From positions 1-39,005 of the IMG/VR virus record IMGVR_UViG_3300035670_000577: a stretch of DNA of 39,005 bases. The stretch is one strand, 5' to 3'. Shown here piece by piece: positions 4,834 to 39,005 of this stretch (within the stretch, counting starts at the first letter, position 1; each line of letters opens with the position of its first letter). Origin of the DNA: a virus. Made by a program: the position numbers and the translations under genes. A model generated the notes under the pieces. That model did no database searches. It was not told the DNA's origin and saw nothing but the letters and a program-made list of their open reading frames with translations.

Positions 4834-4853
4834 CCCCTCTCCTTTCTCTCGTG

Positions 4854-4870
4854 TCGGGCGACCAGCCCGA
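4854..4870 (-). promoter_or_regulatory. Hairpin at the 5' end of the early transcript
   Basis: TCGGGC and GCCCGA (six base pairs, five-base loop) lie where the RNA from the 4878-4906 promoter should begin, before the ribosome-binding site. 5'-terminal stem-loops of this kind protect phage mRNA from decay. The second Crp-type promoter (7860-7888) has the equivalent structure at 7834-7852. Confidence 0.6.
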
Positions 4871-4877
4871 CGAAACC

Positions 4878-4906
4878 ATCATAGCACACTTTCGGCAGTT
4901 TGTCAA
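4878..4906 (-). promoter_or_regulatory. Consensus sigma70-like early promoter (leftward)
   Basis: On the minus strand: TTGACA (4901-4906), 17-base spacer, TATGAT (4878-4883), with a TGC extension giving TGCTATGAT. This is a near-perfect housekeeping promoter. It drives 4579-4833 and probably all leftward genes beyond it. A perfect 18-bp palindrome begins one base upstream of the -35. Confidence 0.9.
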
Positions 4907-4924
4907 GTGTGACTCTTGTCACAC
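4907..4924. promoter_or_regulatory. Perfect Crp/Fnr-type palindrome (TGTGA-N6-TCACA) next to the -35
   Basis: GTGTGACTCTTGTCACAC is an 18-bp perfect inverted repeat around a 4-base centre. Its inner part fits the consensus TGTGA-N6-TCACA of CRP-family regulators (E. coli CRP, mycobacterial Crp, corynebacterial GlxR). The centre lies about -44 from the predicted start. Since the promoter is already near-consensus, the protein could be an activator or a repressor. A phage-encoded binder is equally possible. Confidence 0.75.
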
Positions 4925-4939
4925 TACGAAACGGCGTGG

Positions 4940-5137
4940 TCATTGACCCCACCCCCGAACACCTGTTCGACGAACACCTGTTCGCCACACCTGCCACACC
5001 TTCACCCCAAGATGAAAAAACGGATACACCGCCAACCCGACAAGCGTCATCGTCACCACCGAGCCAGACAGAAACCCGACAGTCAGCATCACAACCCAAG
5101 TATGCCCGAGCGCATACCCCACTATCGGCGGTCTCAT
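4940..5137 (-). CDS. Small membrane protein with a duplicated RTGVR tail
   Basis: A 65-aa protein. The start at 5137 is chosen over a longer frame because GAGAGG lies at the right distance and its ATG overlaps the upstream stop (ATGA). Residues 14-40 (VVMLTVGFLSGSVVTMTLVG and LAVYPFF) form one long or two short membrane segments. The C-terminus reads WRTGVRRTGVRGWGQ, encoded by a 15-bp tandem duplication that also creates two SOS-like boxes. With the preceding 41-aa membrane gene it forms a coupled pair; exclusion or host-membrane modification is possible but unsupported. Confidence 0.65.
   Translation of the reverse strand: MRPPIVGYALGHTWVVMLTVGFLSGSVVTMTLVGLAVYPFFHLGVKVWQVWRTGVRRTGVRGWGQ
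4956..4984. promoter_or_regulatory. Two tandem SOS-box-like palindromes
   Basis: CGAACACCTGTTCG occurs at 4956-4969 and again at 4971-4984. Each fits CGAAC-N4-GTTCG, the LexA half-site spacing of actinobacteria and Bacillus. They lie in the 3' end of the coding region at 4940-5137 and about 50 bases upstream of the leftward -35 at 4901-4906. They are part of a 15-bp tandem coding repeat, so they might be coincidence; a second tandem pair at 8114-8147 argues against that. Confidence 0.45.
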
Positions 5138-7335: not shown

Positions 7336-7566
7336 TCAGACGGTGACGGGGCGCGACTCCTCTACGCGCTTCACTGCCCGAAGGATAGCCCACCCGACTC
7401 GGTAAGCCGAAGTAAAACGCTCTCGGTCGAACCTCGGATTAGTGACCGCGAAGTAGTCCGCGAGTTTCTCGGCTACTTGGTCGGTCGCTGTTCGGTGTTC
7501 TTGGGATTCCGCGCCTACTACCGCGAGTAGTTTCGCTATGGCTTGGTAGTCCTTTCTCGTAATCAT
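7336..7566 (-). CDS. Small helical early protein
   Basis: A 76-aa protein starting at 7566 behind GAGAGAAAGG. It is helical (ITRKDYQAIAKLLAVVGAES, DQVAEKLADYFAVTNPRFDR, RVGWAILRAVKRVEES). The order 'I.r.dy..iA..la', 'va..la.yfa..NprFdr.rF' recurs in small actinophage early proteins of unknown function. No catalytic motif. Confidence 0.7.
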   Translation of the reverse strand: MITRKDYQAIAKLLAVVGAESQEHRTATDQVAEKLADYFAVTNPRFDRERFTSAYRVGWAILRAVKRVEESRPVTV

Positions 7567-7811: not shown

Positions 7812-7833
7812 TTGTGTACCCTTTCTCTAGGTA

Positions 7834-7852
7834 TCGGGGGGCTTTCCCCCGA
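7834..7852 (-). promoter_or_regulatory. Hairpin at the 5' end of the first early transcript
   Basis: TCGGGGG and CCCCCGA (seven base pairs, five-base loop) begin at the predicted transcription start of the 7860-7888 promoter. It has no U-run, so it is unlikely to be a terminator and more likely protects the RNA 5' end, as at 4854-4870. Confidence 0.6.
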
Positions 7853-7859
7853 TGAGTAC

Positions 7860-7888
7860 ACCATAGCGAACCCGTCGCCACTTGTCAA
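7860..7888 (-). promoter_or_regulatory. Consensus sigma70-like leftward early promoter
   Basis: On the minus strand: TTGACA (7883-7888), 17-base spacer, TATGGT (7860-7865). It faces the leftward early operon from the divergent control region. A Crp-type palindrome lies 10 bases upstream of the -35. Confidence 0.9.
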
Positions 7889-7898
7889 CTTTTTCCAC

Positions 7899-7914
7899 TG
7901 TGACTTTCGTCACA
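7899..7914. promoter_or_regulatory. Second perfect Crp/Fnr-type palindrome
   Basis: TGTGACTTTCGTCACA fits TGTGA-N6-TCACA exactly, with TGTGAC/GTCACA arms around TTTC. Its centre is about -53 from the predicted start. It differs from the site at 4907-4924 only in the central bases and in distance to the -35. Two perfect copies, each at a consensus promoter, make chance unlikely. Confidence 0.75.
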
Positions 7915-7949: not shown

Positions 7950-8012
7950 AACCTGTAAGGCAACCCTAACAACCCGTAAGGGTCACCTAACAACTTGTAA
8001 GGCTCACCTAAC
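7950..8012. repeat. Three tandem 21-bp iteron-like repeats
   Basis: Units at 7950-7970, 7971-7991 and 7992-8012 abut with no spacer. Each has the frame AAC-YY-GTAAGG-...-ACC-TAAC (the second half is CACCTAAC in units 2 and 3, AACCCTAAC in unit 1). Head-to-tail repeats in a non-coding region next to the main divergent promoter suggest an initiator or repressor binding array. Confidence 0.8.
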
Positions 8013-8021
8013 AGTAGGCGG

Positions 8022-8066
8022 ACTTCCTCGGAAGTTACCGACGGGTAACTTACTGACGGGTAACTT
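8022..8066. repeat. Cluster of inverted and direct repeats
   Basis: ACTTCC-TC-GGAAGT (8022-8035) overlaps GTTACC-GACG-GGTAAC (8034-8049). The 12-mer GACGGGTAACTT occurs at 8040-8051 and 8055-8066. The block directly follows the iteron-like repeats, and the two together form the most repeat-dense non-coding stretch of the genome. Confidence 0.75.
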
Positions 8067-8113
8067 GGTGGGGGTGGGGGGTTGTGGTGGGTTGACTGCG
8101 GAGAGTGAGCAGG

Positions 8114-8147
8114 CGAACGTGTGTTTGGTGGGGCGAACGTGTGTTCG
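8114..8147. promoter_or_regulatory. Tandem SOS-box-like sites in the control region
   Basis: CGAACGTGTGTTTG (8114-8127) and CGAACGTGTGTTCG (8134-8147) are direct repeats 20 bases apart. The second fits CGAAC-N4-GTTCG perfectly; the first has one change. A TTGACT at 8092-8097 lies 17 bases before the first box, so a plus-strand promoter covered by the boxes is conceivable, although its -10 would be poor. Confidence 0.5.
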
Positions 8148-8650: not shown

Positions 8651-9370
8651 ATGGCGAAGCGTACGCAGCGTAAGGATGTGGGGGCGTGGCTTGGCGGTAA
8701 TCGTGGGACGGTGCAATCAAGGATGCCTCGGTCTAATGCGTCGGATACTGAGGCGAAGGCTGATGCTGGTGGTGGGCAGATGGAGCAGGTTCGTGCGGAG
8801 TTGGGGTTGGGTGCGTATGCGGCTGGGGTTGGTGCTGCTGGTGCTATTGGTGCTGGTGTTGCGGCGGTGAAGTCTGGTGCTGCGGCCCGCGGGATAAATA
8901 GGTTGCGGGGTGAGGTTGTTGGTTTGCACGGTTCTCCCGTGGGTGGCCTAAAAAACATTGAACCAAGAACACCAATCAGGGGACCCAAAAAAGGGGAAGG
9001 TGCCAAAGTGTACGTTTTTCGCACTGACCAGTCTCCCGTGAGGAATCAGAATCTTGCAAATGTCGGAAAATCGAACACGGATTTAGCGGACAGCATTGAG
9101 TTGTCTAGGAAGTATGCGACTGGTGAAATGGGTTGGCTCAAACCGCAAACTCCTTCTGGTCAGGGGTCTGTTTATGTTGTGCGGACGCCGAAGAGGGCTA
9201 CTGATTTGTCTCAGGATTCTTTGAATCGTGGCATTTTGGCGACCTCATCTTCTTCCCGAGCGAAAGTTGTTTCGGAAATAAAGTTGGCTGATAAATCGCC
9301 TGAGCAGGTTTTTTCTGAAGTTGCAAAAAAGTTGAAGCGTGCTGGCGTAAAAGTTCCTAAGAAGAAGTAA
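8651..9370 (+). CDS. HGS-motif protein, possibly ADP-ribosyltransferase-like, first gene of the late operon
   Basis: A 239-aa protein from ATG 8651 (ATG 8630 is possible but overlaps the -10). Residues 1-90 are basic then Gly/Ala/Val-rich (GAYAAGVGAAGAIGAGVAAV), possibly membrane-active. From residue ~93, GLHGSPVGGLKNIEP is followed by GAKVYVFRTD and, further on, GSVYVVRTPKRA. The 'HGS...GL..I.P' plus 'VYV' layout resembles the NAD-binding start of ADP-ribosyltransferase-like phage proteins, but no catalytic Glu can be placed with confidence. Codon use turns A-rich at about 8945, suggesting a mosaic gene. It ends in TAATG overlap with the terminase. An internal or capsid-carried role is possible. 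Confidence 0.5.
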   Translation: MAKRTQRKDVGAWLGGNRGTVQSRMPRSNASDTEAKADAGGGQMEQVRAELGLGAYAAGVGAAGAIGAGVAAVKSGAAARGINRLRGEVVGLHGSPVGGLKNIEPRTPIRGPKKGEGAKVYVFRTDQSPVRNQNLANVGKSNTDLADSIELSRKYATGEMGWLKPQTPSGQGSVYVVRTPKRATDLSQDSLNRGILATSSSSRAKVVSEIKLADKSPEQVFSEVAKKLKRAGVKVPKKK

Positions 9371-11346
9371 TGCCAGCAGGTAGGTCGGGGAGGCGGCAGA
9401 TACCGCCGCAGGATGTCGCACGCTACTGGCAGTCGCGTGCTGCTGGGATGTCGATTCAGGACGCATCGAAGATTGCTGGGGTGCACGTCAATACGGCGTC
9501 GAAGTGGGAGGCGAAGAAGCGGAAAGCGGCTGCGGAGATTCAGTTGGCTGAGGTTGAGGTCGGTCAGGTGCGTAAGAAGCAGGGTGGTGTGCAGGCGGAG
9601 CAGTGGAAGGCGGCGATGGATGTCGCCGATTTGCCGCCCGTCATCCCCTACGAGCGGTTGAGCCCTGAGGCGCAGAGGGGTTGGGATGATTTCGACTACT
9701 TCAGACGCCGATACTTAGGCCGAGTACCTAGCCCGTGGCAGGTGGATGCTGCGTACAAGATTGTGAAGATGCTGGAATCTCCTGAGAAGGAGTTCATTCT
9801 CATCAACTGTCCGCCTGGTGCTGGTAAGTCGACGTTGTTTCACGATTTTGCGTGTTGGATGATTGTGCGTAACCGCAAGATTCGTGTGCTAATCGGTTCA
9901 GCGACACAAACCTTGGCGAAGATGTACAGCCGTCGTATCCGTGAGACGTTGGAACGCCCGTTTCCTTTGCATCCTGACCCGATTTTGGTGGAGAAAGGGT
10001 TGGCTATCAACGCCGAGGGCTGTCTGTCTATTGACTATGGGCGGTTCAAACCGTCATCGAGTGGCGCGTTGTGGCGTGCTGAGGAGTTCATCGTCGAACA
10101 AGAAGACCTCTCAGGTCTCGACAACAAAGAACCGACCGTTTCTTCGTACGGTATTGACTCAGAGTTCATCGGTCATCGTGCCGACCTCTGTTTGTTCGAT
10201 GACGTGGCAACCCCAGAGAACGCAAAAGAGTCCGTCGCCAGAGACAAACTTTTGGAACGGTGGGATACCGTCGCTGAGGCACGCGTCGACCCAGGCGGCT
10301 TGTTGGCTGTTATCGGTCAGCGTTTGGGACCAGGTGACCTCTACGCCCATTGTCTCGCCAAAGTGACTTACGAGGAAGACCCTGACGCGTACGACGGGTC
10401 CGACGTCACCGACGTTTCCAACGTCCAAGAACCAGAGAAAAAATCCAAGTACACGCATTTCATTTACAAGGCTTACTACGAGGAACTGGACACGGGGCGC
10501 GAATCGAAGAAAACTACTGCACCACCCTGGCCCAACGGACCGCTGTTGGACCCGTACAGGTTGTCGTGGAAAGACCTCTCATACCTGAAGCACTCGACGC
10601 CTGCGAAGTTCCAGGTCATCTATCAGCAGGAGGACATGGCGCAAGGCAACTATTTGATTGAACGCGTCTGGGCAACGGGCGGCATGGGCAACGATGGCGT
10701 GTTGTATCCAGGGTGTATCGACAATGACCGTAGGCCTGGGTACATTCCGTCGAATCTGGAGCCGCCGATTATTTCGATTGCTTCAGTGGACCCTTCGCCG
10801 ACGAACTTTTGGGCTATCCAATGGTGGCTCTACCAACCCAAAACAAACCTGCGCTATTTGATTGACTGTGAGCGGGTGAAACTAACGGCGGAGGAACTAC
10901 TTGGTTTCGATACGTCGAGCCGCGAGTACGGCGGCATAATGGAGATTTGGCAGAACAGGTCGTTCGAGATGGGCTACCCCATCTCCCATTGGATTGTTGA
11001 GGTCAACGCCGCCCAACGGTTCCTCCTCGCCCACGATTTCGTTCGCAAGTGGCAAGCCCTTCACGGGGTCAACGTCATCCCTCATACAACCTCCAGGAAC
11101 AAACTAGACGAAAACCTGGGTGTGGAGGCGTTGCTGCCGAACTTGTTTAGGACGGGTCAGGTTCGCCTGCCGACGATGCGGGAAAACTGGAAGACGTTGG
11201 CGTTCGTCGAGGAGTTGTCGTCGTGGACGCCGAACAAGAAGAACGGGACTGACCTCGTGATGTCGTGCTGGTTTGCCATGTTGCATCTGCCTGAGTTGGG
11301 GCCGTTGAAGGTTCCGCCTCGCCTGTGGCGCCCTTCCTGGATTTGA
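9370..11346 (+). CDS. terL: Terminase large subunit with N-terminal helix-turn-helix
   Basis: A 658-aa DNA-packaging motor. Residues 1-55 contain an HTH (RAAGMSIQDASKIAGVHVNT) like that of small terminase subunits. The ATPase has Walker A PPGAGKST at residues 148-155, an arginine-rich coupling region and Walker B LCLFDD ending near residue 278. The nuclease domain shows the RNase-H-like order: SIASVDPSP (first Asp), WIVEVNAAQRF (second acid), and TDLVMSCWFA (third Asp). It cuts concatemers and translocates DNA through the portal. No separate small terminase gene is found upstream, so the N-terminal HTH may take over DNA recognition. Confidence 0.95.
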   Translation: MPAGRSGRRQIPPQDVARYWQSRAAGMSIQDASKIAGVHVNTASKWEAKKRKAAAEIQLAEVEVGQVRKKQGGVQAEQWKAAMDVADLPPVIPYERLSPEAQRGWDDFDYFRRRYLGRVPSPWQVDAAYKIVKMLESPEKEFILINCPPGAGKSTLFHDFACWMIVRNRKIRVLIGSATQTLAKMYSRRIRETLERPFPLHPDPILVEKGLAINAEGCLSIDYGRFKPSSSGALWRAEEFIVEQEDLSGLDNKEPTVSSYGIDSEFIGHRADLCLFDDVATPENAKESVARDKLLERWDTVAEARVDPGGLLAVIGQRLGPGDLYAHCLAKVTYEEDPDAYDGSDVTDVSNVQEPEKKSKYTHFIYKAYYEELDTGRESKKTTAPPWPNGPLLDPYRLSWKDLSYLKHSTPAKFQVIYQQEDMAQGNYLIERVWATGGMGNDGVLYPGCIDNDRRPGYIPSNLEPPIISIASVDPSPTNFWAIQWWLYQPKTNLRYLIDCERVKLTAEELLGFDTSSREYGGIMEIWQNRSFEMGYPISHWIVEVNAAQRFLLAHDFVRKWQALHGVNVIPHTTSRNKLDENLGVEALLPNLFRTGQVRLPTMRENWKTLAFVEELSSWTPNKKNGTDLVMSCWFAMLHLPELGPLKVPPRLWRPSWI

Positions 11347-22680: not shown

Positions 22681-23643
22681 ATGACCAAGACACAACAGAG
22701 CGACCTGCTCACAGACCAGGTTGCATTTGACAGGATTGCGTACTTCGCACTCCGCAGCGAACTTCTGTTCGACGCGGTTGCAGACGTGATGCCCGTCGCA
22801 CAAGCAATGCCAGGCTCATCGGTGAAGTTCACCATCTTCAACGACCTGAGCGAAAAGACCAGCACCCTCACCGAGGACACCGACGTCACCCCAGTGGTGA
22901 TGGGCGACAGCCAGGTTGAAGTGACGCTGAACGAGTACGGCAACGCTGTCAACACCACCGCCAAGTTGCGTGGAACTTCGTTCCTTGACGTGGATGCGGC
23001 AGCCGCCAACCTGGTCGGCTACAACGCTGGTATCAGCATCGACGGCGTTATCCGTGACGTCCTCGCCGCTGGCACGAACGTCGTCTACGGTGGCGGCGGA
23101 AGCACCACCCCGACGGCCCGCACCGAAATCGAGGCGACCGACATCATCGAAGCGAACGACGTCCGCAAGGTTGTCGCCGCTCTCCGCAAGGCCAACGCCG
23201 TTTCGTTCAACGGCATGTACATGGGTTACATTCACCCCGACGTGTCATACGACCTCCGCAAGGAGACTGGTGTGGCTTCGTGGCGTGACCCGCACGTGTA
23301 CAGCGACCCAGCGAACATCTACAACGGCGAAGTCGGAGCCTTCGAAGGCGTGCGTTTCATTGAGACGCCGCGTGCGAAGATTTTCGAGAACGCCTCGAAC
23401 GGCTCAGGCTCGACTGGCACCGTGGATGCGTACTGCACGCACATCGCGGGTCGTCAGGCCCTCGCCAAGGCACACTCAATCGTGGATGGCAACGGCGCGT
23501 TCCCACGCGTTGTCCGCGGTCCAGTGGTTGACGTGCTCCAGCGTTTCCAGCCTGTCGGCTGGTACTGGCTCGGCGGCTACGCACGATTCCGTGAGGCTTC
23601 GCTGCGTCGCATCGAGTCGGCTTCGTCGCTCGGCGCAAACTGA
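22681..23643 (+). CDS. Major capsid protein, N4-gp56 family (HK97 fold)
   Basis: A 320-aa protein. It has the N4-gp56-type order: an N-terminal helix (DQVAFDRIAYFALRSELLFD), SVKFTIFNDLSE, a TLTEDTDVTPVVM strand, VTLNEYGNAVNTTAKLRGTS, a long helix with DVRKVVAALRKANA, a YIHPDVSYDLRKETG block, and the diagnostic GAFEGVRFIETPRAKIF. It closes with GWYWLGGYARFREASLRRIE. It builds the icosahedral shell. It is preceded by the scaffold and followed by a strong terminator, so scaffold and capsid form a high-output unit. Confidence 0.92.
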   Translation: MTKTQQSDLLTDQVAFDRIAYFALRSELLFDAVADVMPVAQAMPGSSVKFTIFNDLSEKTSTLTEDTDVTPVVMGDSQVEVTLNEYGNAVNTTAKLRGTSFLDVDAAAANLVGYNAGISIDGVIRDVLAAGTNVVYGGGGSTTPTARTEIEATDIIEANDVRKVVAALRKANAVSFNGMYMGYIHPDVSYDLRKETGVASWRDPHVYSDPANIYNGEVGAFEGVRFIETPRAKIFENASNGSGSTGTVDAYCTHIAGRQALAKAHSIVDGNGAFPRVVRGPVVDVLQRFQPVGWYWLGGYARFREASLRRIESASSLGAN

Positions 23644-38741: not shown

Positions 38742-39005
38742 ACGCAAAGGGGAATGTCAAGGCAACAAGGACAAATGTTCCTTGGACAACTGCCCGCTGT
38801 TTGGCACTCTGGGAAGACCCGACCGACGTGGCGTACGAAGAGTTAGAGGGTGTTCCGACCCTGCCGCTCGCGGTCGCCGAAATCGGACTAAAGGGGATGC
38901 GAAGGCGCGTCGTGCCCGTAAGAAGTTGGGGTTGGGCGGTCACCTTACACGTCACGAAGAGAACTGGGCTGGTGCTTTTCGTACCGAAATCAAAGCAGGC
39001 TTACA
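38731..39005 (+). CDS. N-terminal part of the junction-spanning gene: zinc-motif, possible resolvase-like nuclease
   Basis: The 5' end of a 154-aa gene that continues at base 1 and stops at 281. It starts at ATG 38731, eleven bases inside the previous gene. ERKGECQGNKDKCSLDNCPL gives Cys9, Cys16 and Cys21, with Cys41 later, a likely zinc site. A very basic part follows (RRGVRRVRG...RGRRNRTKGDAKARRARKK), then the HEEN...EIK core described at 1-281. Basic, metal-binding and following exonuclease plus annealing protein, it suits a Holliday-junction resolvase-like enzyme. Confidence 0.6.
   Translation, partial: MTDERKGECQGNKDKCSLDNCPLFGTLGRPDRRGVRRVRGCSDPAARGRRNRTKGDAKARRARKKLGLGGHLTRHEENWAGAFRTEIKAGL
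38915..39005. repeat. Exact 91-bp terminal direct repeat, right copy
   Basis: Identical to 1-91. It lies within a coding frame that continues at the left end, so the repeat shows circular closure of the assembly. Confidence 0.95.

Follow-up and report, generated by a model that had tools for sequence, protein, structure and literature searches.

The window analysed here, a stretch of 39,005 nucleotides from a viral IMG/VR record (IMGVR_UViG_3300035670_000577), has identical ends of 91 bp (positions 1-91 and 38915-39005), and this terminal redundancy makes it probable that the map is circular and complete. Its gene content includes a terminase, a portal protein, a RecE-like exonuclease and a WhiB protein. 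A block of small genes is read leftward from 7.8 to 4.9 kb from a promoter that we call P2, and the next block along, from 4.8 to 2.8 kb, is read in the same direction from P1; both are presumably composed of early genes. The positions of the main features are given in the table.

Features of the P1 and P2 regions and the terminase of the window (positions are those of the window)
Feature	Position	Strand	Remarks
First ORF downstream of P1	4579..4833	minus	84 aa, without a clear family
P1 leader hairpin	4853..4871	minus	begins at the predicted transcript start
P1 promoter TTGACA-17-TATGAT	4878..4906	minus	TG precedes the -10; gap to the palindrome, 1 bp
P1 CRP-type palindrome TGTGAC-N4-GTCACA	4908..4923		16-bp core
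Two LexA-like boxes CGAAC-N4-GTTCG	4956..4984		upstream of P1
Small early gene, MTRKDY family	7336..7566	minus	in 7/11 motif-bearing and 0/9 motif-free genomes
First ORF downstream of P2	7644..7811	minus	about 55 aa, GTG start, read by eye
P2 leader hairpin	7833..7853	minus	begins at the predicted transcript start
P2 promoter TTGACA-17-TATGGT	7860..7888	minus	palindrome 10 bp upstream
P2 CRP-type palindrome TGTGAC-N4-GTCACA	7899..7914		TGTGACTTTCGTCACA
Three tandem GTTAGG-N4-CCTTAC boxes	7955..8012	minus	21-bp period, upstream of P2; 0/100 shuffles had as many
Two LexA-like boxes	8114..8147		CGAACGTGTGTTTG and CGAACGTGTGTTCG; upstream of P2
Terminase	9370..11346

WhiB points to an actinobacterial host and no further, so that a mycobacterial host is not supported. 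Phage isolates of Planktophila, about 39 kb in size, likewise encode WhiB (PMC10202952). The comparison of the window with isolated phages revealed no DNA match, only distant matches for TerL, and a single match in the consensus promoter scan, which is the level expected by chance. When TerL was used to search for a host, one of 396 Actinomycetota genomes (G120) was matched; contig 2 of this genome carries two terminases of the phage family of the window (L384 and L385), which are possible prophages and a possible lead to the host.

At P1, a palindrome and a TTGACA-17-TATGAT promoter on the minus strand had been annotated together, and we observed that both are present as described, at a frequency far above chance; the inner 16 bases are indeed a perfect TGTGA-N6-TCACA of the CRP type. 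The distance of one base to the -35 is correct for this 16-bp core, whereas the 18-mer GTGTGACTCTTGTCACAC (4907-4924) directly abuts the -35. Around the core, a 20-bp inverted repeat with perfect 8-bp arms extends from 4906 to 4925. The second perfect copy, located at P2, had been missed in the initial annotation. The leader of P1 is predicted to fold with -14.4 kcal/mol (z -1.5), a value that is weak by itself, and that of P2 with -17.5 kcal/mol (z -3.5). The P2 leaders of relatives also fold as a hairpin with a differing sequence, perhaps as a result of compensatory change.

To evaluate these sites against chance, 100 dinucleotide shuffles of the window were used as the null model for perfect palindromes. 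Two TGTGA-N6-TCACA sites were observed and 0.09 expected, and none of the shuffles gave two; for TGTGAC-N4-GTCACA the values were 2 and 0.01. P1 and P2 are also the only TTGACA-N16..18-TATNNT promoters of the window (0.06 expected), both with a perfect palindrome and a 17-bp spacer. Relaxed CRP sites (two mismatches or fewer) were not enriched in the window (7 observed, 20 expected), so that the enrichment signal resides in the two perfect sites only.

The same arrangement was found in many other viruses. A scan of viral contigs for the exact palindrome-promoter composite yielded 103 stretches, as compared with 3 when the palindrome was replaced by a scrambled version of the same composition, and the cellular collection yielded 31 matches with more scattered gaps. 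After removal of near-copies, the gap between the palindrome and the -35 was exactly 10 bp in 57 of 72 cases, and the spacer was 17 bp in 59 of the 72. The motif loci contained 118 TTGACA-N17-TANNNT promoters, for which the palindrome showed at most two mismatches in 83, three in none, and four or more in 35; given that these loci had been selected for one perfect site, the 60 perfect copies are partly circular, but the 20 copies with one mismatch are not. A profile of 53 copies revealed A/T at gap positions 5-6 (96-98%), a C preceding the -35 (87%) and a TG-like extended -10. Read from the palindrome onwards, the conserved composite has a 10-bp gap whose middle is A/T-rich, the -35 TTGACA, a 17-bp spacer, in many cases a TG, and the -10 TANNNT. 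The number of motif copies per phage record ranges from 1 to 5, and many phages have 2-4. Immediately below the motif promoters of L009, L018 and L041, parS-like palindromes are present (TTTCACGTGAAA, TTCCACGTGGAA).

Among the matches listed, both the C6/G11 and the T6/A11 versions of the palindrome occur in this promoter arrangement, and for TGTGAT-N4-ATCACA the gap peaks at 10 (15/42) and at 20-22 (12/42). In addition, tandem palindromes 21 bp apart were found in three loci. Contact with RNA polymerase is favoured by the two gap peaks and the 21-bp tandems, which indicate helical phasing. Direct observation covers the sequences, the extent to which they are conserved and the fixed phasing; together, bimodal, helically phased and conserved palindromes point to a real operator that touches RNA polymerase.

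Other boxes accompany the palindromes. The GTTAGG-N4-CCTTAC boxes upstream of P2 resemble DtxR/IdeR sites. Between these and the LexA-like boxes, at 8032-8070, lies a GTTACC-GACG-GGTAAC inverted repeat followed by the direct repeat GACGGGTAACTT. Further LexA-like CGAAC-N4-GTTCG boxes are present at 709-722 and 22758-22771, and the boxes with one mismatch or fewer outnumber those in each of 100 shuffles of the window. LexA of S. venezuelae recognises tCGAAC-N4-GNNCGa, as in its lexA box TCGAACGTGTGTTT (PMC9380542), and the putative boxes of the window match this actinobacterial consensus by sequence. Around 79 motif promoters, 34 GAAC-N4-GTTC boxes were counted and 5.3 expected, all of them upstream; the upstream enrichment at motif promoters was 13-fold for CGAACA-N2-TGTTCG and 14-fold for GTTAGG-N4-CCTAAC. 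This clustering of LexA-like and DtxR-like boxes would also be in line with the palindrome acting as a decoy and drawing a host regulator off host genes, with any effect on the promoter being secondary. We consider this very improbable, as a phage record has so few sites and the constant spacing to the -35 would serve no purpose in a decoy.

The conservation of the unit was evaluated among relatives. In the four distinct P2 orthologues, 11 of the 12 half-site columns are invariant, as compared with 1 of 4 in the N4 core and 9 of 40 in each flank. Retention of the promoter with loss of the palindrome, which the initial annotation had named as evidence against an operator, was mostly not seen: the P2 orthologues retain both elements, and in most of the palindrome-free relatives inspected the consensus promoter is also missing at the corresponding place, the one possible exception being L305, where a consensus promoter is accompanied by a different inverted repeat. 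Upstream sequence of 6 kb or more was available for 50 terminase relatives, and of these only L236 and L255 retain both elements. For 26 relatives, the majority 33-41 kb long, the search of whole records detected no perfect TGTGA-N6-TCACA; L255 belongs to this set, as its site has one mismatch.

In the terminase tree, the motif appears in one deep clade, whose 30 rows had all been sampled for carrying it, and in the small subclade of the window, which is nested among motif-free relatives. Small early-gene families are restricted to motif-bearing genomes (7/11 vs 0/9, and 5/11 vs 0/9), and since they co-occur only with the motif, the comparison suggests that the promoter and the early genes were transferred together as one unit. 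On sequence comparison the palindrome-promoter unit is mosaic, near-complete relatives being without the palindrome. A mosaic early module could also be expected if the palindrome were a product of chance or a recombination landmark to which no protein binds; this idea is contradicted by the shuffle tests, the bimodality, the gap specificity and the conservation of the half-sites, and we find it hardly credible.

Regarding the protein that may bind the palindrome, the initial annotation had considered a regulator of the host or of the phage. We did not find a Crp-type HTH (PF13545) in 44 motif-bearing phage records; a phage-encoded Crp was rejected on this basis, and for the same reason a host regulator of the CRP/FNR family becomes the best reading. 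The two perfect sites of the window have the TGTGA-N6-TCACA palindrome of CRP/FNR-type sites, and they agree with GTG(N)6GNCAC, the consensus published for Crp of S. coelicolor. In 296 Actinomycetota genomes, 67 perfect sites were counted (summed by hand), whereas the reversed control gave 8; of 20 sites inspected, about half were intergenic, and none had the gap-10 promoter of the phages. From these comparisons, we give an even chance to the proposal that a dimeric host regulator of the CRP/FNR family, of the actinobacterial cAMP-Crp/GlxR type, binds the palindrome. A literature search with a limited choice of terms found no report tying actinophage promoters to Crp or GlxR.

A regulator encoded by the phage could instead bind the palindrome and time the early promoters of the phage itself, by autoregulation or as an early-to-late switch. 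In favour of this, viral contigs often carry the exact composite and cellular genomes rarely do, several copies are present in many phages, and an HTH protein (1367-1735) is encoded by 7 of 11 motif-bearing and 2 of 9 motif-free genomes. However, no family is both universal in the motif-bearing genomes and missing from the motif-free ones, and the same operator is maintained throughout divergent phages. The HTH protein, which was the best phage candidate, was rejected because its recognition helix is not conserved although the operators match. For these reasons a phage regulator is possible but rather unlikely. WhiB was not retained as a specific partner, since its signatures are also present in 7 of 9 motif-free relatives; the pattern used is indicative only, as it missed the WhiB of the window. 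Rex, whose operator consensus is TTGTGAA-N4-TTCACAA (PMC2883068), shares the 6-4-6 palindrome geometry, but it has A/T and an upstream T where the phage sites have C6/G11 and an upstream G (74%). A6/T11 occurred in only 2 of the 25 relaxed gap-10 cases listed and the flank base is also wrong; thus, Rex was discarded.

Assuming that the transcript starts 7 nt below the -10, the predicted centres of the sites are -53.5 for a gap of 10 and -44.5 for a gap of 1. As in CRP, GlxR and FNR promoters, TGTGA-N6-TCACA lies above a sigma-70-type promoter, and the dependence on helical phase that is typical of CRP class I and II promoters can be recognised in the sequences. In contrast, the class positions are -61.5 (or -71.5) and -41.5, and with the inferred start the phage sites fall at about -53.5 and -44.5, so that simple canonical CRP activation is not supported. 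The phage module also differs from those promoters in its fully consensus -35 and its location in phage early regions. The site is, as judged from its bases, CRP-like by sequence and not by standard position. The centres off the canonical positions argue against the host-CRP reading, and E. coli CRP is reported to activate only weakly from near -50 at ordinary class I and class II promoters (PMC2859248). Two other observations argue in the same direction: strong matches to a Crp-type HTH are scarce among small actinobacterial genomes (12 of 30 were above the family cut-off, several of these with short matches), and host genomes rarely show the promoter arrangement of the phages.

It is also not evident why P1 and P2, which already look strong, would need an activator. 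A core promoter so near the consensus would suit a bound protein that represses or restrains the polymerase, in which case the palindrome would switch the promoter off instead of activating it. The P1 palindrome lies directly against the -35, and a fixed phasing is equally suitable for repressors that touch the polymerase; nevertheless, most copies lie wholly upstream of the -35 with a gap of 10, unlike the sites of steric repressors, and this possibility seems to us quite unlikely.

Returning to the host regulator, a sequence of events can be proposed. Upon phage entry, the host sigma-A polymerase would recognise the -35 and -10, both of consensus type. The regulator, always bound to the same side of the helix, could touch either the alpha C-terminal domain or region 4 of sigma, a contact that would strengthen the initiation of the leftward, presumably early, P1 and P2 operons. 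In this scheme we infer the identity of the regulator, the activating sign, the timing and any response to cAMP or nutrients.

Partial precedents exist for this arrangement. The late promoters of phage P2 are activated by Ogr or P4 Delta through a dyad element near -55; they share with the sites described here a dyad at this distance upstream of phage promoters, and differ in the sequence, in the phage-encoded zinc-finger activator and in a poor -35. At the E. coli aer promoter, CRP is centred at -49.5, also between the class I and II positions; this promoter uses sigma-28, whereas the -35 and -10 of the phages are of the sigma-70 type (PMC2859248). In phage T1, host CRP is reported to let the regulatory gene pir read the metabolic state, as is proposed here; T1 differs in being a temperate enterobacterial phage and in having a phage regulator gene as the target rather than a repeated early-promoter module (PMC6737242).

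In its most complete form, the proposal is that a host CRP-family activator works from a seldom described position (about -53.5, with further sites one and two turns upstream) and together with LexA-like and DtxR-like boxes in a mosaic early module shared by uncultured actinophages, so that an infection would read the carbon, DNA-damage and iron state together; this extended version is speculative, and we judge it unlikely as a whole. As far as the host regulator itself is concerned, the phages that share the motif probably wire their first genes to a regulator such as cAMP-Crp. The composite provides a precise and testable promoter signature for many uncultured phages, raises the mechanistic question of how CRP-family proteins act from a site intermediate between those of class I and class II, and represents a possible route by which lytic phages may adjust early expression to the physiology of the host.
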